64,000 nt of DNA from Butyrivibrio hungatei NK4A153 (lineage in GTDB: Bacteria > Bacillota > Clostridia > Lachnospirales > Lachnospiraceae), in assembly GCF_000424465.1 (NCBI RefSeq), contig NZ_AUJY01000008.1:124001-188000 (forward strand). The letters run 5' to 3'. Position numbers and translations under genes: made by a program. The notes beneath the pieces were generated by a model. The model was not told the origin of the DNA. It was given only the letters and a program-made list of their open reading frames with translations, and did no database searches. Below are positions 14,956 through 36,969 of this stretch, piece by piece. Within the stretch, counting starts at the first letter, position 1, and each line of letters opens with the position of its first letter.

Positions 14956-15062
14956 ATTTAGGTTGCTTATAGGCGATGTTAACGCAAGATTGCCGGGGGC
15001 ATGATTTTAACGATTAAAAAGAAAATCGGCGAATAAACAGCGAAAATAGGTAAATACATAAT

Positions 15063-15648
15063 TCCTGCTGTCGAGAAGAGTACTTATGGCTTGATCATGA
15101 CAGCGGGAAATATAGTTTTATAAAAATCCGCTGTCGAAAAGTAGGCTTGTACCTTGATTGTGACAGCGGGAAATATAGTTTTACAAAAATCCGCTGTCGA
15201 GAAGAGTACTTGTGGCTTGATCATGACAGCGGGAAAAAACAGTTTTATAAAAATCGCTGTCGAGAAGAGTACTTGTGGCTTGATCATGACAGCGGGAAAT
15301 ATAGTTTTACAAAAATCCGCTGTCGAAAAGAGTACTTGTGGCTTGATCATGACAGCGGGAAAAAACAGTTTTATAAAAATCGTTGTTGAAAAGTAGGCTT
15401 GCGCCTTGATCATGACAGCGGGAAATATAGTTTTACAAAAATCCGCTGTCGAAAAGCAAGCTTGTGTCTTGATTATGACAGCGGGAAAAATAGTTTTACA
15501 AAAATCCGCTGTCGAAAAGCAAGCTTGTGTCTTGATTATGACAGCGGGAAAAAACAGTTTTATAATAATCGCTGTTGAAAAGCAAGTATTGGCTTTAATT
15601 ATGGCAGCGAGAAATGCAAATTTATAAATTCCGCCGAAAACTCGCTGC
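15063..15648. repeat. Tandem hairpin array, family C (8 units of 63 bp)
   Basis: Eight units of exactly 63 bases start at 15099 and are flanked by partial units. Each has GACAGCGG and CCGCTGTC arms around an A/T-rich loop, then a spacer such as AAGAGTACTTGTGGCTTGATC. Some arms change together: ATCGCTGTC and CGTTGTTG variants occur with altered partners. Because 63 is divisible by three, long open frames appear on both strands; they are by-products. The gap 14956-15728 holds nothing else. Family C recurs at 21580-21680. Confidence 0.9.
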
Positions 15649-16452: not shown

Positions 16453-17343
16453 ATGGAATGGATCGAAGCATTACAAAAAGCCATCACGTATATGGAGGAG
16501 CATCTTCTCGAGGAAATCAACTATGAAGATGTAGCGAAGCAGGTGCACACGTCGAGCTACGAGTTTCACAGGGCTTTCAGTTTCGTGACGGGCTTAACGG
16601 CCAACGCGTATATAAGAAACCGCCGCTTGTCTTTGGCGGGAAAAGAAGTTGTGGAGACCGATGCGAAGATCACCGATCTGGCGATGAAGTATGGATATGA
16701 GACACCGGAAAGTTTTACCAAAGCGTTTACAAGATTTCATGGTGTTGCGCCCAAAACAGCCAGAGAAGAAGACTGCAAACTTGTGCTTTTTAATCCGCTT
16801 ACGATTACTATATCTGTGAAAGGTGGTAAGAGTATGGATTATCGCATTGTTCAAACAAAGGAAAAGAAGTTTATTGCACTGGTAAGAGAGTTCAGCAACG
16901 GTATCATTAACGACGAAGCAAATCACGATGTAGCGGACTTCTGGGGAGAGTGCAACAGTAAGCAGATGCTTTCTCCGATACTTATGCTGAGAGAGGACGG
17001 GAAGCGCGACCTATACGGCCTTTGCAGTCCAACGAAAGAAGGAAAAGATACTTTTGAATACGGCATCGGCATCATTATTGATGAGGATACCAAAGAGTTT
17101 GACCGGAATGATCTGGAGAAAAAAGGTTTCCGCATCTGGGACGTCAATCCCGGTACATATGTGGTCTTTGAATGTGTAGGCGAAGACGGCGACAGCATCG
17201 CTAAGACCTGGGTAAAGTTCTATAAGGAGTTTTTGCCGCAGATGGGCTATGAAGCTTCTGAAGAGACTGACTATGAACTTTACTACGACGGAACCAGGCC
17301 GGATATATTCTGCGAGCTGTGGATCCCGATCAAGAAGAAGTAA
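16453..17343 (+). CDS. AraC-family regulator with GyrI-like effector domain
   Basis: A 296-residue regulator. Residues 5-105 are two AraC helix-turn-helix motifs (YEDVAKQVHTSSYEFHRAF, then MKYGYETPESFTKAFTRFHG). Residues 130-296 are a GyrI-like/AraC effector-binding domain ending ELYYDGTRPDIFCELWIPIK. This order, DNA-binding first and ligand-binding second, matches Rob/BmrR-like drug-sensing regulators. It likely activates a nearby or distant efflux gene on binding a hydrophobic ligand. AGAGGGAGAACAAAAGC precedes the start. Confidence 0.85.
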   Translation: MEWIEALQKAITYMEEHLLEEINYEDVAKQVHTSSYEFHRAFSFVTGLTANAYIRNRRLSLAGKEVVETDAKITDLAMKYGYETPESFTKAFTRFHGVAPKTAREEDCKLVLFNPLTITISVKGGKSMDYRIVQTKEKKFIALVREFSNGIINDEANHDVADFWGECNSKQMLSPILMLREDGKRDLYGLCSPTKEGKDTFEYGIGIIIDEDTKEFDRNDLEKKGFRIWDVNPGTYVVFECVGEDGDSIAKTWVKFYKEFLPQMGYEASEETDYELYYDGTRPDIFCELWIPIKKK

Positions 17344-17357
17344 AAAACAGCAACTTT

Positions 17358-17384
17358 AAGTTTATGGAGGAAACGATTACATAT
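17358..17384. repeat. 27-bp direct repeat, left copy
   Basis: Begins AAGTTTATGGAGGAAACGAT and is identical over 27 bases to 20826-20852. In the right copy it includes the ribosome site and start codon of the ACT-domain gene; here no gene follows. Confidence 0.85.
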
Positions 17385-17391
17385 AGTATAT

Positions 17392-17443
17392 AATGCAATT
17401 ATATCGCAACTATTGTTTTAGCAAATACTATTTGTAAGAAGTG
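17392..17443. repeat. 52-bp repeat, left copy
   Basis: Matches 21361-21412 with one difference in 52 bases (contains CGCAACTATTGTTTTAGCAA). Together with the 27-bp repeat just upstream, this reproduces the two ends of the ACT-gene block (20826-21412) with the gene missing between them. Confidence 0.85.
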
Positions 17444-17453
17444 AGTGGGGTTT

Positions 17454-18365
17454 ATGAAAGCTGTAAAAGAAAATAAAAGAACTTATAGGCAAATCAAAAG
17501 TTTAAAGGATATACCGCGCGCAGAACTGGGAGAAGGAGCGTATGATTTTCTGTGGCAATTTTTGGGCATGTGGTTACTTGTGTTTTCAGTTTTCTTTGGT
17601 TTATTTTTTTTGTGGAGCGATGAATCCGTCAGTTCCAGAACAAATGCAAACATAGTCATAATGTTTGTACTGGCAGTATATCTGCTTTTTGTGAAAAATG
17701 CATTTAGGGAAAAAATGAATAAGCGTGTACTTAGAATGAATCCGGATGGAATCATATATGAGTGGCCGTTTGGGATTACAAAACAGCACAGCTATAGTGA
17801 ATGGGCAGAATCTATAAATGCAGGACACTATCGCATAGGAAGCCGCGGCATTGAATTTTGGCTGGGATTTGAGAAGATAGTTTTCTTTTATAATGTGGGC
17901 CATTTAGGTGAGCGAAAAAAAGCGGAAGAACGATATGAAATGTTCGTTGATTATTTGGCTGAAGTTGATCCAATGCTCAGAGAAAAACTGCCGAAGTTCA
18001 CGAAGGAAAACATCGATTTACTGGATAAGCGCTGTTTTTACCACAGGAGTCGTAAGCATCAACTGATAGTAATGTTTTTTAATATGTTCTTATTTCTTAT
18101 GTTGATTGATTCAGGTGGACATAAGGGAGCGGTTGCTTCAGCATTTTTTTGCGGAATAATTGAGATATTTGTTTTGTATTTCTTGTCCAAAGGTGCTTAT
18201 TACAACTATAAAAATGAAATGGAAATCAGAAAAAAAATGCCGGATGAGACCGGATTGGTGCGAGATGATGGCATTGGAATTTTAAGACCATACTGGGGAT
18301 TTATATATGTAGTTTTGGTGTTTGGAATAAACTATGCCATGCAGTGCGCTATTTTATGGTTGTAA
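17454..18365 (+). CDS. Membrane protein of unknown function, next to the radical SAM gene
   Basis: A 303-residue protein with two hydrophobic segments near 36-54 and 66-82, a soluble middle (about 90-195) and three more near 203-218, 226-243 and 281-302. The middle part, MNPDGIIYEWPFG followed by SEWAESI, resembles the bacterial PH-like domains found in YcxB-type membrane proteins, but this is a weak likeness. It lies 47 bases upstream of the radical SAM gene and may belong to the same system, as membrane partner or transporter-like factor. The ATG at 17454 is preferred over GTG 17445. Confidence 0.6.
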   Translation: MKAVKENKRTYRQIKSLKDIPRAELGEGAYDFLWQFLGMWLLVFSVFFGLFFLWSDESVSSRTNANIVIMFVLAVYLLFVKNAFREKMNKRVLRMNPDGIIYEWPFGITKQHSYSEWAESINAGHYRIGSRGIEFWLGFEKIVFFYNVGHLGERKKAEERYEMFVDYLAEVDPMLREKLPKFTKENIDLLDKRCFYHRSRKHQLIVMFFNMFLFLMLIDSGGHKGAVASAFFCGIIEIFVLYFLSKGAYYNYKNEMEIRKKMPDETGLVRDDGIGILRPYWGFIYVVLVFGINYAMQCAILWL

Positions 18366-18412
18366 TTTGTTGGAAGACTTTTTTAGCATAATAATTGATA
18401 TGGGTAAAAAAT

Positions 18413-19792
18413 ATGATACGTGAAAAATTATATGAATTAAAAGAGTGGAAGGGCGTTGTACATACGACATGGAATCCAAACGGACCCGGTGTGATCAGAA
18501 TCCACATGATTCCGCCCAAATTTAGATTATTTCATTTTGCACCTTCTACGGTTATTTTAAATGGTCAGGATGTGTTGCCAATCAATGAGGCATGGGCGAT
18601 TCTTTTAACCGAGTTTGTTCGTGGGGTTAATAGTTTTGGCAATGGACAGATGAGCCGGGAAATTCTTGATGATATTTTGCTGGGTGTTTTTCATCGCGTA
18701 AGAAAAGTATATCCAACTGTATCAGACGAGCTTCTGAAAGAAGATTTGCAAACAATCGTCAGCACTTTTGATGACATTGCAAGAAATGAGCTTCCTGCTG
18801 TTGATATTGGAATAATGAGTCTTTCTGAGTATGCACCTCATATGACAGCGCCGCATAGAATGGACCTTATGGTATCAGCCATGACAAAAGACGGCAACTG
18901 GGCATGTAATCAGCATTGTCTTCATTGTTACGCCGCAGGCCAAAAATATGCGGAAACTAAAGAATTGTCAACTTCTGAATGGAAGAAGGTAATTGATTGT
19001 TGTAAGAGTGCAAGAATACCTCAGCTTACTTTTACCGGTGGAGAGCCGACTTTGCGAAAAGATTTAGTTGAGCTGATTCGATATTCGCGATGGTTTGTGA
19101 CGCGATTAAATACTAACGGAATACTTCTGACAGAGCAGTTGTCTAAGGATTTGATGGACGCTGAACTTGACAGTGTTCAGGTAACTTTGTATTCGCATAT
19201 TGAAGAAGTGCATAATGAGCTGGTTGGTTCAAAGCATTTCAATGATACGATAAACGGAATAAAAAATGCGTTGGCAGCAGGTTTGAATTTAAGTGTTAAT
19301 ACACCATTATGTTCACTTAATAAGGATTATGTAGGTATGCTGGAGTTCCTGCACGAATTAGGTGTGCAATACGTGACTTGTTCAGGTTTGATTGTCACGG
19401 GAAATGCTACTTCGGATGCATCAAGACAATCCCAGCTTACAAGTGATGAATTATATGAAATATTACGAGCTGCAAAAGAATATACCGACAATCATGACAT
19501 GGAAATAGATTTTACATCTCCGGGATGGATTGATAGTGGAAAATTAGCGCAGCTTCACATGGTCGTACCAAGTTGCGGGGCATGCCTTAGCAATATGGCA
19601 ATTAATCCGGACGGTAGGGTAATACCATGTCAAAGCTGGCTATCCGATGATACCCTTGGCGATATGCTCAAGGATCCTTGGAAGAAGATTTGGAATGGGC
19701 GAAAATGTAAGAAGATTCGAATGGAATCTGCAAAGGCTGAAGGAATATGCCCTCTTCGTAAAATGAATGAAGGGGAGGTAGTACATGAATAA
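18413..19792 (+). CDS. Radical SAM/SPASM-like peptide-modifying enzyme
   Basis: A 459-residue protein. Residues 165-173 are CNQHCLHCY, the C-x3-C-x2-C site for the 4Fe-4S cluster that cleaves SAM, and TFTGGEPTLRKDL follows. A SPASM-type tail binds extra clusters: CGAC at 388-391, NPDGRVIPC ending at C406, and CPL near the end. Residues 1-140 form an extra N-terminal domain; the stretch VLPINEAWAILLTEF with the helices after it could be a PqqD-like peptide-recognition fold (inference). The gene overlaps the Cys-Ala repeat protein by 8 bp. That, plus the SPASM tail, points to post-translational modification of the neighbour. Confidence 0.85.
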   Translation: MIREKLYELKEWKGVVHTTWNPNGPGVIRIHMIPPKFRLFHFAPSTVILNGQDVLPINEAWAILLTEFVRGVNSFGNGQMSREILDDILLGVFHRVRKVYPTVSDELLKEDLQTIVSTFDDIARNELPAVDIGIMSLSEYAPHMTAPHRMDLMVSAMTKDGNWACNQHCLHCYAAGQKYAETKELSTSEWKKVIDCCKSARIPQLTFTGGEPTLRKDLVELIRYSRWFVTRLNTNGILLTEQLSKDLMDAELDSVQVTLYSHIEEVHNELVGSKHFNDTINGIKNALAAGLNLSVNTPLCSLNKDYVGMLEFLHELGVQYVTCSGLIVTGNATSDASRQSQLTSDELYEILRAAKEYTDNHDMEIDFTSPGWIDSGKLAQLHMVVPSCGACLSNMAINPDGRVIPCQSWLSDDTLGDMLKDPWKKIWNGRKCKKIRMESAKAEGICPLRKMNEGEVVHE

Positions 19793-20792
19793 AAGAATAT
19801 TTGGTTTTGCTGTTGCAATAATCTTTTTTGCAAGTTTGTTATACTGCCCGGTTGTAAAGGCGGCAAAACCTTTAGATCACATTCATGATTATGAAGTGAC
19901 GGTAGATATGCGTAAAGATGGCTCCTGTGATATTTCGTATCATATCGTATGGGAGGTATTGGACAGTGAATCAGAGGGGCCGTTAACCTGGGTAAAGGTT
20001 GGATTAGCCAATAGATATGCCGATGAATTTAAAGCGATTTCCGACAATATTGATTCCATAAGTCATTACATTGATGATGGCGATTACGTAAGGCTTAACC
20101 TGGATAAAAGATATACGGCAGGAGAAACACTGGTACTTGATTTTTCGCTTCATCAAAAAAATCTTTTTAAAATGAAAAAAGATTGTGTCAATTATAAATT
20201 TACTCCGGGATGGTTTCCGGATACGCCGGTAGATAAAGTGGTAGTTCGTTGGAATGCTGAGGATGTTTTGGATGTCAGAGGTAATCCTAAGCTTGAGAAC
20301 GGATATTATGTATGGGTCAATGATGCCGGTGGATATAATCTGAAAGAAACTGCACGACTTTCTTATGACATAAATCAATATGACTATATGTCGGGAAATG
20401 TAAGCGACAAACCTTCGAATGACCAACATAGAGCTGACATTAGCGAATTATATACTGACGAGGACAAGCAATTATGCAGTATTATGTTATTGGTTATACC
20501 ATTAGGCGGACTGCTTATATGCATTGTCCTTATGAGTGTGTGTAAGGCGGTACGTGAAGATGGATATTCGGAAAAAAGAGGACTTGGTGCAAAGTTTTAT
20601 ATAGATCAGGATTTTAATAAGAGCACAAGTAGTAATTACCATGTCCATGACGGTGGCGGTGGTGGCGGATGTGCATGCGCCTGTGCATGTGCATGCGCTT
20701 GCGCGGGAGGTGGCCGTGCCGGTTGCTCCAGAAAAGATTTTTATGGCACCAGGCTGTATACGAAGGATATTTACGATGCGCTGAAGAAATAA
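19785..20792 (+). CDS. Signal-peptide membrane protein with (Cys-Ala)6 tail, candidate radical SAM substrate
   Basis: A 335-residue protein. Residues 1-26 are a signal peptide ending VVKAA. Residues 27-225 form a beta-rich extracytoplasmic domain like DUF2207 proteins. One transmembrane helix lies at about 229-250. The cytoplasmic tail carries G290-G295, six Cys-Ala pairs (296-307), GGGRAGC with a seventh Cys at 314, and SRKDFYGTRLY. The Cys and Ala codons vary (TGT/TGC, GCA/GCC/GCT/GCG), so the repeat is kept at protein level. GGGGAGGTAGTAC precedes the ATG, inside the radical SAM gene. Likely role: a membrane-anchored substrate whose Cys residues are modified, or bind metal. Confidence 0.8.
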   Translation: MNKRIFGFAVAIIFFASLLYCPVVKAAKPLDHIHDYEVTVDMRKDGSCDISYHIVWEVLDSESEGPLTWVKVGLANRYADEFKAISDNIDSISHYIDDGDYVRLNLDKRYTAGETLVLDFSLHQKNLFKMKKDCVNYKFTPGWFPDTPVDKVVVRWNAEDVLDVRGNPKLENGYYVWVNDAGGYNLKETARLSYDINQYDYMSGNVSDKPSNDQHRADISELYTDEDKQLCSIMLLVIPLGGLLICIVLMSVCKAVREDGYSEKRGLGAKFYIDQDFNKSTSSNYHVHDGGGGGGCACACACACACAGGGRAGCSRKDFYGTRLYTKDIYDALKK

Positions 20793-20825
20793 GGGGTATA
20801 AAAGGGGTATAAGCGCATGGGGGTG

Positions 20826-20852
20826 AAGTTTATGGAGGAAACGATTACATAT
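20826..20852. repeat. 27-bp direct repeat, right copy
   Basis: Identical to 17358-17384. This copy carries GGAGG and the first two bases of the ACT-domain start codon. Confidence 0.85.
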
Positions 20853-21216
20853 GGAATTGAAGAGAATTGAGCATAAACTTACTGTTTGCAAAGTGGCAGA
20901 GGCATCCAATATTAACATGGATGCCCCTTTCTACTTTATCGGTAAGACTGATGAAGAGTTGTCATTGGTGTGCAGAACGGAGGATGCGCCACAAAACACG
21001 CTCGAGCGTGATGATGGCTGGAGAGGCTTTCGTATTCAGGGGGTTCTTGATTTTTCATTGGTCGGCATTTTGTCAAAGCTGTCCGGCATACTCGCGGAGC
21101 ATAAAATCGGAATCTTCGCTGTGTCGACATATAACACGGATTATATTCTTGTGAAAGAAGAAAACTTTGAGCGAGCGTTGGACGTTTTGGCGTCTGAAGG
21201 GTATATAATAGTATGA
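20851..21216 (+). CDS. ACT-domain protein (ACT_7/CASTOR-like)
   Basis: A 121-residue protein with an N-terminal ACT-like half and a C-terminal ACT_7 half. LDFSLVGILSKLSGILAEHK and IGIFAVSTYNTDYILV are the standard segments of amino-acid-binding ACT_7 proteins. Such proteins probably sense small amino-acid-like ligands. It begins 58 bases after the Cys-Ala protein. The final codons and stop (IIV-stop) lie inside the 157-bp triple-hairpin repeat. Confidence 0.85.
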   Translation: MELKRIEHKLTVCKVAEASNINMDAPFYFIGKTDEELSLVCRTEDAPQNTLERDDGWRGFRIQGVLDFSLVGILSKLSGILAEHKIGIFAVSTYNTDYILVKEENFERALDVLASEGYIIV

Positions 21217-21362
21217 TATCTTAACTGAAATTACAGAAATCCGCACTGGCTGCGGATTTCGTGAGAACATGATTCAGGAGTCAACCAAGCCCTATCGACG
21301 AAGTCGATTCAAATTAGCTTGGTTTATGCATTCTTGAACTTCATGTTCAAGAATGCATAAAA
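21206..21362. repeat. Triple-hairpin element, copy 2 (157 bp)
   Basis: About 90% identical by eye to 34445-34601. It contains GAAATCCGCA/TGCGGATTTC, then the nested outer CCAAGC/GCTTGG and inner ATCGAC/GTCGAT arms, then GCATTCTTGAAC/GTTCAAGAATGC. Its left end overlaps the ACT gene stop. The order and loop sizes equal those of the element in the toxin gene at 13433-13565. Confidence 0.85.
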
Positions 21363-25406: not shown

Positions 25407-25667
25407 GTGCCAAAGAAATCTAAGTTATTGGAAAAACTGTTGTCAAAACCGGCACCAACAAGCTTTACCATACGAGAGCTTGATGCTCTGATGAAGCAGT
25501 GTGGATGTGAAAAATTTGAAGGTGGAAGAGGTTCAGGAATAGGTTATTATCATGTGGAAACTAAGCGAATACTTCAGTTTGATGGACCACATCCGGGAAA
25601 CGAATTATATCGATACCATATTAAAATGATTAAAGCTTTTTTGAAGGAAGTAGGTGAGATAGAATGA
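25407..25667 (+). CDS. hicA: HicA-family mRNA interferase toxin
   Basis: An 86-residue HicA-like toxin, a double-stranded-RNA-binding-fold RNase that cleaves mRNA. IRELDALMKQCGCEK and GGRGSGIGYYHV match the first helix and following strand, with the probable catalytic His in YYHV. The FDGPHPGNELYRYHIKMIKAF segment ends like other HicA proteins. The start is GTG at 25407, 6 bases after AAAGGAG. It overlaps the antitoxin gene by 4 bp. Confidence 0.85.
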   Translation: MPKKSKLLEKLLSKPAPTSFTIRELDALMKQCGCEKFEGGRGSGIGYYHVETKRILQFDGPHPGNELYRYHIKMIKAFLKEVGEIE

Positions 25668-26011
25668 TCAGTTCATTGATGGAATACAATGGGTATCATG
25701 CAAAAGTTGAGTTTGACAGTGAGGACCAGATTTTTATAGGTCATGTGCTTGGAATCAATGACTCTTTGAATTTTCATGGAGAGTCTGTAAAGGAGCTAAC
25801 TCAGTCAATGCACGACTGTATAGATAATTACCTTGATTACTGTAAACAAGTTGGAAAAGAACCTGAACGCGAGTTTAAAGGATCTTTTAATGTGCGTATT
25901 AAACCGGAGCAGCATAAAAAAATCGCTTTATACGCTGCAAATGAGGGAATCACGATAAATCAGTTTGTATCAAGGGCAATAGATGATGAACTTGATATTC
26001 TTGAAGGATAA
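25664..26011 (+). CDS. hicB: HicB-family antitoxin
   Basis: A 115-residue antitoxin. The N-terminal partial RNase-H-like domain is visible as YNGYHAKVEFDSEDQIFIG and HVLGINDSLNFHGESVKEL. The C-terminal FNVRIKPEQHKKIALYA and TINQFVSRAID is a ribbon-helix-helix DNA-binding domain, so it probably represses the promoter at 25347. It neutralises HicA by direct binding. The overlap with hicA ensures coupled synthesis. Confidence 0.9.
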   Translation: MISSLMEYNGYHAKVEFDSEDQIFIGHVLGINDSLNFHGESVKELTQSMHDCIDNYLDYCKQVGKEPEREFKGSFNVRIKPEQHKKIALYAANEGITINQFVSRAIDDELDILEG

Positions 26012-28189: not shown

Positions 28190-28475
28190 TGCTATTACGG
28201 GTATAGAATCCGAGAAAAAGATTTATGCACGCAGAAATGAGTGAATGTGGTAATGGCTTTACGGGCATAGAATCTGAGAAATGGATCTGTACACGTAGAA
28301 ATGAGCTAATGTAGAAGTGACTTTACGGACATTAAAACCCTAGAATTGATCTGTACACGTAGAGGTAAGTGGATTTAGGAGTAATAATACGGACATAGAA
28401 TCCATAAATAGATTTTGTACACGTAGAAATAAGAGAATGCGAAATGGCTTTTACGGATATAAAGTTTGTAATTGA
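28190..28475. repeat. Tandem hairpin array, family B/D (4-5 units)
   Basis: Units of about 64-68 bases with TTTACGGGCATAGAATC, then GATCTGTACACGTAGA, diverged from the array at 2256-2515. It ends with ACGGATATAAAGTTTGTAA, the same terminal sequence as the first array. It follows the truncated YbaK gene and fills the gap 28169-28497, which holds no other feature. Confidence 0.85.
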
Positions 28476-29494: not shown

Positions 29495-29925
29495 CATGAC
29501 TGCAGGAGAAGAAATGGCAATCTGAGCCATATGGATTTTTCGAGATGTTATGACCCTAGAAGGTAAAAAAGCTGATTTGGGTCATATGGCTTTGCGAGGT
29601 GCTATGACCCTAGAAGGTGAAAAGGCTGATTTAGGTCATATGGCTTTGCGAGGTGCTATGACCCTAGAAGGTGAAAAAGCTGATTTGGGTCATATGGCTT
29701 TGCGAGATGCTATGACCCTAGAAGGTGAAAAAGCTGATTTAGGTCATATATCTTTGCGAGATACTATGACTCTGGAAGAGGAAATTGCGGAATAGGGTCA
29801 TTCGCAGGAGCGGAATCGGATGACTGCAGAAGAGAAAATGCCACGTTGAGTCAACTTCCGGGGGGAGCCGCATGACTGCGGAAAAGAAAATCACCAAGTT
29901 GAGTCAATCGGCGCCATGAAATCAA
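29495..29925. repeat. Tandem hairpin array, family E (54-bp units)
   Basis: Five units, starting at 29550, 29604, 29658, 29712 and 29766, each have ATGACCCTAGAAGG and GGGTCAT arms. The fifth has ATGACTC with GGGTCAT. Flanking degenerate units pair as ATGACTGC with TTGAGTCA (29822-29855 and 29871-29907). Because 54 is divisible by three, an 81-codon open frame runs through it; it lacks a ribosome site and is not called. The gap 29458-29955 contains nothing else. Confidence 0.85.
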
Positions 29926-36451: not shown

Positions 36452-36496
36452 ACACGGAATATTGGATGAAACATATATATAATTCGTGGAAGATAT

Positions 36497-36945
36497 GTAC
36501 GGTGCAGGGAAGTGAATAAGCACCGTACAGAGGAGCGGCGTATGATGCGTGCGGTGCAGAAAAGTGAAAGAGCACCGCACAGATGAGCGGCATAAGATAT
36601 GTACGGTGCAGAAAAACTAATATGCACTGTACAGGAAAGTCGTGGAAGATATGTGCGGTGCGGGGAAGTAAATTAGCACCGCACAGATGAGCGGCATAAG
36701 ATGTGTACGGTGCAGGGAAGTAAATTAGCACCGCACAGATGAGCGGCATAAGATATATACGGTGCAGAAAAGCTAATATGCACCGTACAGGAAAGTCGTG
36801 GAAGATATGTACGGTGCGGGGAAGTGAATAAGCACCGCACACAGGCGCGGGATAAGATCTGTACGGTGCAGGGAAGTAAATTAGCACCGCACAGATGAGC
36901 GACAGAAGATGCGTACGGTACAGGCAGACGTAAAATGGACCGTAC
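36497..36945. repeat. Tandem hairpin array, family F (9 units of 52 bp)
   Basis: Nine units spaced exactly 52 bases from 36497. Arms change together: units 1 and 3-like have GTACGGTGC with GCACCGTAC, units 2 and 4 have GTGCGGTGC with GCACCGCAC, and unit 9 has GTACGGT with ACCGTAC. Spacers alternate between AGATGAGCGGCATAAGATAT and AGGAAAGTCGTGGAAGATAT types. The paired changes argue that the hairpin itself is maintained. A long minus-strand frame across it is a by-product. It fills 36452-36969. Confidence 0.9.
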
Positions 36946-36969
36946 AGAATTTTGGAGGACAGAATAGAA

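Follow-up and report, generated by a model that had tools for sequence, protein, structure and literature searches.

The window, a 64,000-nucleotide stretch of Butyrivibrio hungatei NK4A153 (contig NZ_AUJY01000008.1), carries two overlapping forward-strand genes, one encoding a radical SAM/SPASM-type enzyme (P0001) and the other a membrane protein that bears a Cys-Ala repeat in its C-terminal tail (P0002; Table 1). The 3′ end of the enzyme gene overlaps the start of the P0002 gene by 8 bp, and the P0002 C-terminus reads Gly6-(Cys-Ala)6-GGGRAGC followed by 21 more residues. A sequence-only reading of this stretch had singled out the pair and proposed that the enzyme modifies the tail. When the open reading frames (ORFs) were read again, every position it gave proved correct: the CNQHCLHCY motif at enzyme residues 165–173, the SPASM-like cysteines 388, 391 and 406, the gene overlap, the signal-like segment and one further hydrophobic segment of P0002, Gly6, (Cys-Ala)6 and the seventh cysteine. 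A further invariant cysteine, 446, had gone unlisted. The ORF list also holds an alternative TTG start at 18395, upstream of the enzyme ATG; the closest relatives align to the ATG at 18413.

Table 1 Features of the enzyme–tail locus, in window coordinates.
Feature	Positions	Strand	Basis
Radical SAM/SPASM-type enzyme (P0001), 459 residues from ATG, proposed tail maturase	18413..19792	+	ORF, PF04055 + PF13186, solved relatives, tree
Enzyme N-terminal domain, residues 1–146, conserved NG motif 50–51, possible RiPP-recognition element	18413..18850	+	Alignment, hhalign
CX3CX2C radical SAM cluster motif, Cys 165/169/172	18905..18928	+	Alignment A1, 32/32
C-terminal auxiliary-cluster region, Cys 388/391/406/446, Twitch-like	19574..19750	+	Alignment A1
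Membrane protein with Cys-Ala tail (P0002), 335 residues, DUF2207-like ectodomain, proposed substrate	19785..20792	+	ORF, alignments
Signal-peptide-like hydrophobic segment, P0002 residues 1–28	19785..19868	+	Hydropathy only
Single transmembrane segment, P0002 residues 227–258, preceded by acidic and followed by more basic sequence; tail predicted to be cytosolic	20463..20558	+	Hydropathy and charge count only
Gly6 spacer, P0002 residues 290–295	20652..20669	+	Translation
(Cys-Ala)6 repeat, P0002 residues 296–307, predicted modification site	20670..20705	+	Translation, alignment, codon comparison
Conserved motif GGGRAGCSRKDFY after the repeat, including the seventh Cys (314)	20706..20744	+	Alignment, codon comparison
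Third gene, 306-residue membrane protein, possible accessory	17445..18365	+	Present in 10 of 24 loci examined

The pairing of a radical SAM enzyme with a Cys-Ala-tail gene is a real, conserved system, found in anaerobic bacteria of several families. Among 397 genomes from the family of the window genome, 29 have P0002 homologues at E ≤ 1e-3, of which 27 bear a Cys-Ala tail of 4 to 6 units. A search with P0001 at E ≤ 1e-60 gives 27 genomes, and these are the identical 27. The check proposed with the sequence-only reading was whether a radical SAM gene always adjoins the Cys-Ala-tail homologues, and here the enzyme directly adjoins the tail gene in 27/27 (in G355 a contig end splits the enzyme, the rest of which lies on a second contig). 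The two tail-less P0002 matches sit in genomes without an enzyme homologue: G082 has no P0001-like gene within the 14 kb read around its homologue, and the match in G383 is marginal and contains stops. G207, from the same genus as the window genome, carries neither gene, and the module is therefore accessory.

A degenerate DNA pattern for (Cys-Ala)4 was searched in 398 genomes of the phylum and 381 of the class, with tails confirmed by ORF reading; the family, phylum and class samples overlap partly, and G000 is in all of them. The pattern matched 17 phylum genomes, 13 with real tail genes and the enzyme adjacent in all 13, and 13 class genomes, nine with real tail genes and the enzyme adjacent in eight; the ninth tail gene (G973) runs off its contig. 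Because the tail recurs with an adjacent enzyme in other families, a chance origin of the repeat is excluded. The pattern itself does arise by chance in places, and such matches (G501, G543, G600 and G519 in the phylum sample; G1011, G804, G843 and G868 in the class sample) were not counted as tails: in these eight genomes it lies only outside ORFs, or in repetitive ORFs without the enzyme. G778 and G575 have chance places in addition to a real tail gene, and a control with the pattern reversed also matched a few genomes.

The reverse search used a profile of alignment A1, which holds 32 enzymes: 13 of the 27 from the family sample, those of L031–L033, four of the f18/f23 type, eight of the f59/f121 type and four from the class search. 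Labels such as f18, f23, f59 and f121 denote anonymous families, and 'Lachno-type' follows the named loci L031–L033 (Butyrivibrio, Pseudobutyrivibrio) and taxonomy; A1 does not include L097 and L103, which have long extensions, or 12 further enzymes of the family sample. Against 319 phylum genomes the profile gave 11 matches at E ≤ 1e-130, followed by a gap to 1e-66, and all 11 genomes have a Cys-Ala tail beside the enzyme (interrupted by a contig end in G624). The tail-adjacent enzyme is also the best P0001 match in each of 13 chosen genomes; its margin is 50 or more orders of magnitude in the nine genomes with a second match at E ≤ 1e-8, and in the other four it is the sole match. Wherever both sides of the locus are readable, the two genes are adjacent partners. 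They overlap in 22 of 24 loci, as read from longest-ORF starts, which overstates overlap, and the gaps in the other two are 0 and 9 bp.

Some loci show further arrangements. G1017 (L155:5782–9078) has two tandem Cys-Ala-tail genes and one radical SAM gene, and in the second tail copy Tyr replaces one repeat Cys (CACACAYACACA). A transposase-like insertion, named by eye, splits the Cys-Ala-tail gene of G1091 (L154:9807–11829), where the adjacent enzyme is intact. The enzyme and Cys-Ala-tail pair is also carried by L250 (MT837216.1), a 7.4-kb unverified 'Bacteriophage sp.' record from human faeces that is without annotation and may be bacterial DNA. No plasmid record matches P0002.

We put the probability that the tail would be the substrate of the enzyme, whatever the bond formed, at roughly three in four. 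That part of the earlier proposal, including the membrane anchoring of the substrate, gains from the adjacency in all 27 family-sample genomes and from the tail-less homologues that occur without the enzyme.

The window enzyme belongs to the radical SAM family (PF04055, 64.4 bits against a cut-off of 29.5, E = 1.9e-17) and carries a SPASM/Twitch region (PF13186, 36.2 bits against 21.5, E = 7.2e-9). Cys 165, 169, 172, 388, 406 and 446 are invariant across A1, and Cys 391 is kept in 25 of the 32. The family sample agrees, with Cys 388/406/446 in 27/27, Cys 391 in 22/27 and Cys 165/169/172 in 26/27, the 27th being the contig-cut enzyme. The columns of the second SPASM cluster, CX2CX5C, are filled in 11–12 of the 32 A1 enzymes (f18, f23, f59 and f121 types), missing in the other 20, and absent in 27/27 family-sample enzymes. 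With CX2CX5C missing and three auxiliary cysteines invariant, the window type is therefore Twitch-like, and the three-Cys pattern in the alignment allows an open coordination site. The Twitch domain of SkfB has an open auxiliary-cluster site, and the open site of CteB is ligated by a substrate cysteine, as described in parts of PMC6231123.

In a tree of 49 radical SAM proteins the 32 tail-adjacent enzymes form one clade (support 99/99), with an outgroup limited to 17 other radical SAM proteins from 13 chosen genomes and some long branches. This clade is single despite differing gene order and carrier protein. The best solved-structure relative of the window enzyme by sequence is SkfB (6efn, E = 1.3e-26), and the 18 solved relatives listed include cytosylglucuronate decarboxylase, PqqE, MoaA, CteB, SuiB and anSME. 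Kinship of this kind, with SkfB on top and PqqE, CteB and SuiB matched, fits an enzyme that modifies peptides. It also bears on an account in which the tail is an unmodified metal- or iron–sulfur-binding sequence of the metallothionein-like CXC kind, whose bound metal the enzyme needs or uses. Runs of CXC are natural metal ligands, and some relatives place His between the cysteines, as in (CHSA)n and CAHSSC; one radical SAM clade is nevertheless linked to the tail gene in every case with both sides readable, and the closest relative with both a solved structure and a known function is a peptide-modifying enzyme, so that we regard metal binding by an unmodified tail as improbable.

The same relatives raise the question of which reaction a tail-modifying enzyme would perform. 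Oxidative formation of formylglycine from Cys, as by anSME, epimerisation or C–C bond formation would equally make the tail the substrate and would share in the probability given above. Radical SAM RiPP (ribosomally synthesised and post-translationally modified peptide) enzymes and anSME perform such reactions (passages in PMC8326336), two anSME structures are among the solved relatives listed (4k36 and 4k37, E ~2e-6), and TvgB introduces the same C–C modification into every TVGG repeat of the precursor on which it acts (as reported in PMC9062424). Strict conservation of the cysteines and SkfB as top solved relative lean instead to chemistry at the Cys sulfur, and the CXAXR-type sulfatase motif is not in the repeat. 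We consider a reaction of these other kinds rather unlikely, while thioether chemistry, given the tail as substrate, appears slightly favoured.

No NCBIfam model reaches its cut-off for the window enzyme among the best 25 of 65 families, and the enzymes of relatives likewise stay below cut-off among the best 25 matches listed for each. TIGR04340, of the ACGX system, appears only for L106 among the matches listed, at 63.5 against 400 bits. NCBIfam, Pfam and solved structures give no specific family for either protein.

The repeat in P0002 draws on the two Cys codons and the full set of four Ala codons. Over 28 tail codons, comparison with L032 (Butyrivibrio hungatei) gives 15 identical, 12 synonymous and one nonsynonymous, L033 gives 12 identical, 16 synonymous and none nonsynonymous, and the nearer L031 gives 23, four and one, respectively. 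Changes in the tail are nearly all synonymous, and the protein sequence is therefore what is conserved, which bears out the earlier argument from synonymous codon variation within the repeat. Alignment A2, of 26 tail proteins (f18/f23 types and L161 left out), has a mean column identity of 27 % and invariant Cys 300, 304, 306 and 314 and Ala 301, 303, 305 and 307. No other part of the partner protein, which diverges elsewhere, is as well conserved as the tail; the length of the partner is ~300–690 residues as read in the loci.

Hydropathy of 22 carriers shows an N-terminal segment in 21, the exception being L245, whose start was not included in the reading; all 22 have a later membrane segment. 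Seven have a third hydrophobic stretch, which in L105, L109 and L120 is the Cys-Ala run itself. An ectodomain outside and a tail inside fit these profiles, and DUF2207 proteins are described, in the part of PMC10457818 that concerns them, as having an outside ectodomain and a Gly/Ser-rich intracellular C-terminus. The DUF2207 likeness claimed earlier for P0002 stands as a distant one and falls short of membership: the match to PF09972 is sub-threshold (14.3 against 24.4 bits, E = 0.048), and of 26 relatives scanned only three have a match at E ≤ 0.01, the best at 1.7e-4. No DUF2207 match was found in the f18, f23 and CHSA carriers scanned. For TIGR04222, NCBIfam gave no family for P0002 at E ≤ 1 and none for three relatives at E ≤ 1e-3.

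Carriers of the f18/f23 type have the enzyme gene downstream and a larger cytosolic domain before the tail, which forms the extreme C-terminus (CACACACACASSGGCT or ...GGGGCT). Their ectodomains are related to those of the Lachno-type (all of A2), at 97.7 % for f18-type against Lachno-type. Two loci were scanned: in L110 the tail protein includes a fused TPM domain, and in L109 a neighbouring gene encodes one. The tail proteins of L098–L103 have a zinc-ribbon-like CPGCG...CxYCGRS segment between the membrane segment and the tail, and these loci are without the third gene seen in 10 of 24 loci.

The system extends beyond the Cys-Ala repeat. Just below the profile gap, at E ~1e-63 to 1e-67, lie enzymes of a related unnamed type (G405, G676 and G492) that overlap a membrane protein with a (Cys-His-Ser-Ala)n (CHSA) tail. 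The three loci (L243:4265–6960, L244:5821–8834 and L245:5290–8207) encode a DUF2207-like carrier and then another conserved membrane protein, and the CHSA carriers share the overall plan of the Cys-Ala carriers. Their ectodomains give 95.8 % against the f18-type and only 5.8 % against the Lachno-type directly. A quick tree groups the three enzymes with the 32 at SH-aLRT 88, with no bootstrap and with three long outgroup branches left out. The next profile matches opened (L226, L227 and L231) are other radical SAM genes, of which L226 and L227 lie, by eye, beside haem-synthesis genes.

Each enzyme type comes with its own tail type, (CA)n with one and (CHSA)n with the other, and several family members mix both repeat alphabets (CAHSSCACAC...). 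This pairing and the mixed alphabets therefore support the repeat as what the enzyme reads. They also bear on the idea that the tail is a membrane dock for an enzyme acting on some other substrate. The partner membrane protein has no assigned function and no known product, as such a dock might; for docking there would be no need to conserve the Cys-Ala alternation at almost all positions or to switch to (CHSA)n along with the enzyme type, and we find a dock very improbable.

The 24 neighbourhoods compared have flanks of ~1 to 12 kb, and their neighbouring genes were clustered, not scanned against Pfam. Only the enzyme and the tail gene are universal. The third gene is present in only 10 of the 24 and thus lies outside the core; in the window it has no Pfam family above cut-off, and it is unrelated to the third gene of the (CHSA)n loci (0.8 %). 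A transporter-like cluster occurs in four of the 24 at varying offsets and strands, and other clusters are common to three loci. By clustering only, and with some short flanks, no protease-like or exporter-like family is common across subgroups, and the product therefore probably remains attached to the membrane protein. In a conventional RiPP pathway the modified tail would be cut off and exported as a peptide, and a radical SAM enzyme with a Cys-rich C-terminal core is indeed the usual precursor plan. Against such release stand the neighbourhoods just described, the predicted cytosolic position of the tail and the large ectodomain of the would-be precursor; sactipeptide and ranthipeptide systems are marked by a small leader-bearing precursor that a protease cleaves before export, whereas the partner here is a membrane protein and the 24 loci have no protease or exporter in common by clustering. 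We rate this route a shade less probable still than metal binding by an unmodified tail.

Elsewhere in the window, tandem arrays with periods of ~52–64 bp and multiples lie at 15055–15582, 2255–2498, 28195–28461, 29528–29824 and 36484–36947, and two short adjacent ORFs at 25407–26011 resemble a HicA/HicB-type pair. A promoter scan of 17200–21300 was uninformative, with six sites against 11.9 expected in shuffles.

The N-terminal domain of the enzyme is a plausible candidate for a RiPP-recognition element (RRE) by profile comparison, and plausible only, because its PqqD likeness is strong in the f18 type and weak in the type of the window. Against the PqqD profile, hhalign gives 69.9 % (E = 4e-5) for the f18 type, 18.2 % for the CHSA type, 15.9 % for all pooled and 0.7 % for the f59 type, with three controls at 0.2–0.3 %. 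Pfam PqqD is sub-threshold in 3/3 CHSA-type enzymes (E = 0.012–0.16). Compared with each other, the N-terminal domains give 99.3 % for f59 against Lachno-type, 49.8 % for f18 against Lachno-type and 47.5 % for f18 against f59; those of the CHSA type have no clear match to the Cys-Ala types (0.3–3.7 %).

We propose that the radical SAM/SPASM-type maturase would act in the cytosol on the Cys-Ala tail of its membrane-protein partner. The enzyme would bind this partner near the tail and generate a 5′-deoxyadenosyl radical, and the repeat cysteines would be modified one after another. The likeliest bonds would be S-to-carbon (thioether) links to residues between or beside the cysteines, and the auxiliary cluster would hold a cysteine in the way suggested for sactisynthases. 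The product would be neither cut off nor exported, and would form a tethered, gene-encoded module on the inner membrane face, perhaps metal-binding or redox-sensing. A broader reading, which we hold only tentatively and as less likely than not, is a widespread, unnamed class in which one radical SAM lineage crosslinks (CA)n or (CHSA)n tails into a permanent poly-thioether module at the inner membrane face. Such a module, with a role in metal binding, redox sensing or signalling, would take the place of a secreted natural product.

Several observations weigh against tail modification as we propose it. A free (Cys-Ala)n tail could bind metal unmodified. The kinship to peptide maturases is not exclusive, with cytosylglucuronate decarboxylase and MoaA among the solved relatives, and NCBIfam ranks NirJ2 (106 bits against a cut-off of 500), MoaA (101 bits) and AhbD (95 bits) above SkfB (59.6 against 300) for the window enzyme. 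Its N-terminal domain gives only 5.2 % against the PqqD profile, and Pfam PqqD is not among the matches listed for the nine N-termini scanned. As to topology, an extra hydrophobic stretch lies within the presumed cytosolic part in 4 of the 22 carriers (L106, L107, L108 and L245), and Lys and Arg are more numerous after than before the membrane segment in 13, equal in five and fewer in four. Two loci outside the 24, L120 and L122, have 211 and 107 bp between the genes, and AlphaFold models of both window proteins are poor (mean pLDDT 46 and 53).

Radical SAM peptide maturases are mainly known from small secreted natural products. If our proposal is true, this strict two-gene unit extends radical SAM peptide chemistry to cell-envelope proteins, with two repeat alphabets in related lineages. 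The regular repeat would suit the study of processive radical chemistry, and the pair would offer a first biochemical handle on DUF2207-like proteins.

In the open-licence PMC literature, which leaves most subscription papers outside, we found no paper that treats DUF2207 and radical SAM together. A review (PMC8172795) credits Azevedo et al. 2015 with a sactipeptide cluster in Butyrivibrio hungatei XBD2006, which may or may not correspond to the window locus; the genome has three other radical SAM matches. The DUF2207 proteins in print, such as S. mutans SMU.243, differ from P0002 in that the tail described is Gly/Ser and not Cys-Ala (the passages concerned in PMC10457818).

Among characterised enzymes, SkfB has RRE, radical SAM and Twitch domains, according to the relevant part of PMC6231123. 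The window enzyme resembles SkfB and the sactisynthases in having no second-cluster CX2CX5C ligands and three invariant auxiliary cysteines. In contrast, the SkfB precursor has 55 residues and the proposed substrate here is a 335-residue membrane protein, the N-terminal domain of the window type is not clearly an RRE, and the score on the SkfB model is 59.6 against 300 bits. In TvgA/TvgB, likewise, a radical SAM-SPASM enzyme acts on every repeat of a repetitive substrate, and the same paper mentions an uncharacterised Asp-Cys motif in up to six copies (passages in PMC9062424); unlike the window partner, TvgA and the (Asp-Cys)n substrates are small peptides, and 'Cys-Ala' and 'DUF2207' are absent from the main text of PMC9062424. 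QhpD provides a precedent for a radical SAM enzyme that forms thioethers inside a real protein subunit (described in PMC8172795). Its substrate QhpC, as presented there, is a small dehydrogenase subunit carrying Cys-Asp/Glu links, in contrast to the repeat tail of the membrane protein considered here.

The closest concept found in print, to judge from the relevant sections of PMC12452194, is the proposal that Cys-rich C-terminal tails of TIGR04222 membrane proteins are substrates of MNIO (DUF692) enzymes. As to the earlier suggestion that modification falls on a membrane protein and not on a free peptide, modifying a protein as such has a precedent in QhpD and a proposed one in TIGR04222–MNIO. 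In both the TIGR04222 and the window pairs, a membrane protein with a Cys-containing, Gly/Ser-rich C-terminal tail is encoded beside a peptide-modifying enzyme (PMC12452194). The enzymes belong to different superfamilies, and the tail is predicted to be periplasmic there and cytosolic here. The TIGR04222–MNIO association is also loose, with 490 of 1372 TIGR04222 genomes without MNIO genes as reported in PMC12452194, whereas the association of radical SAM enzyme and Cys-Ala tail is strict in the samples analysed here.

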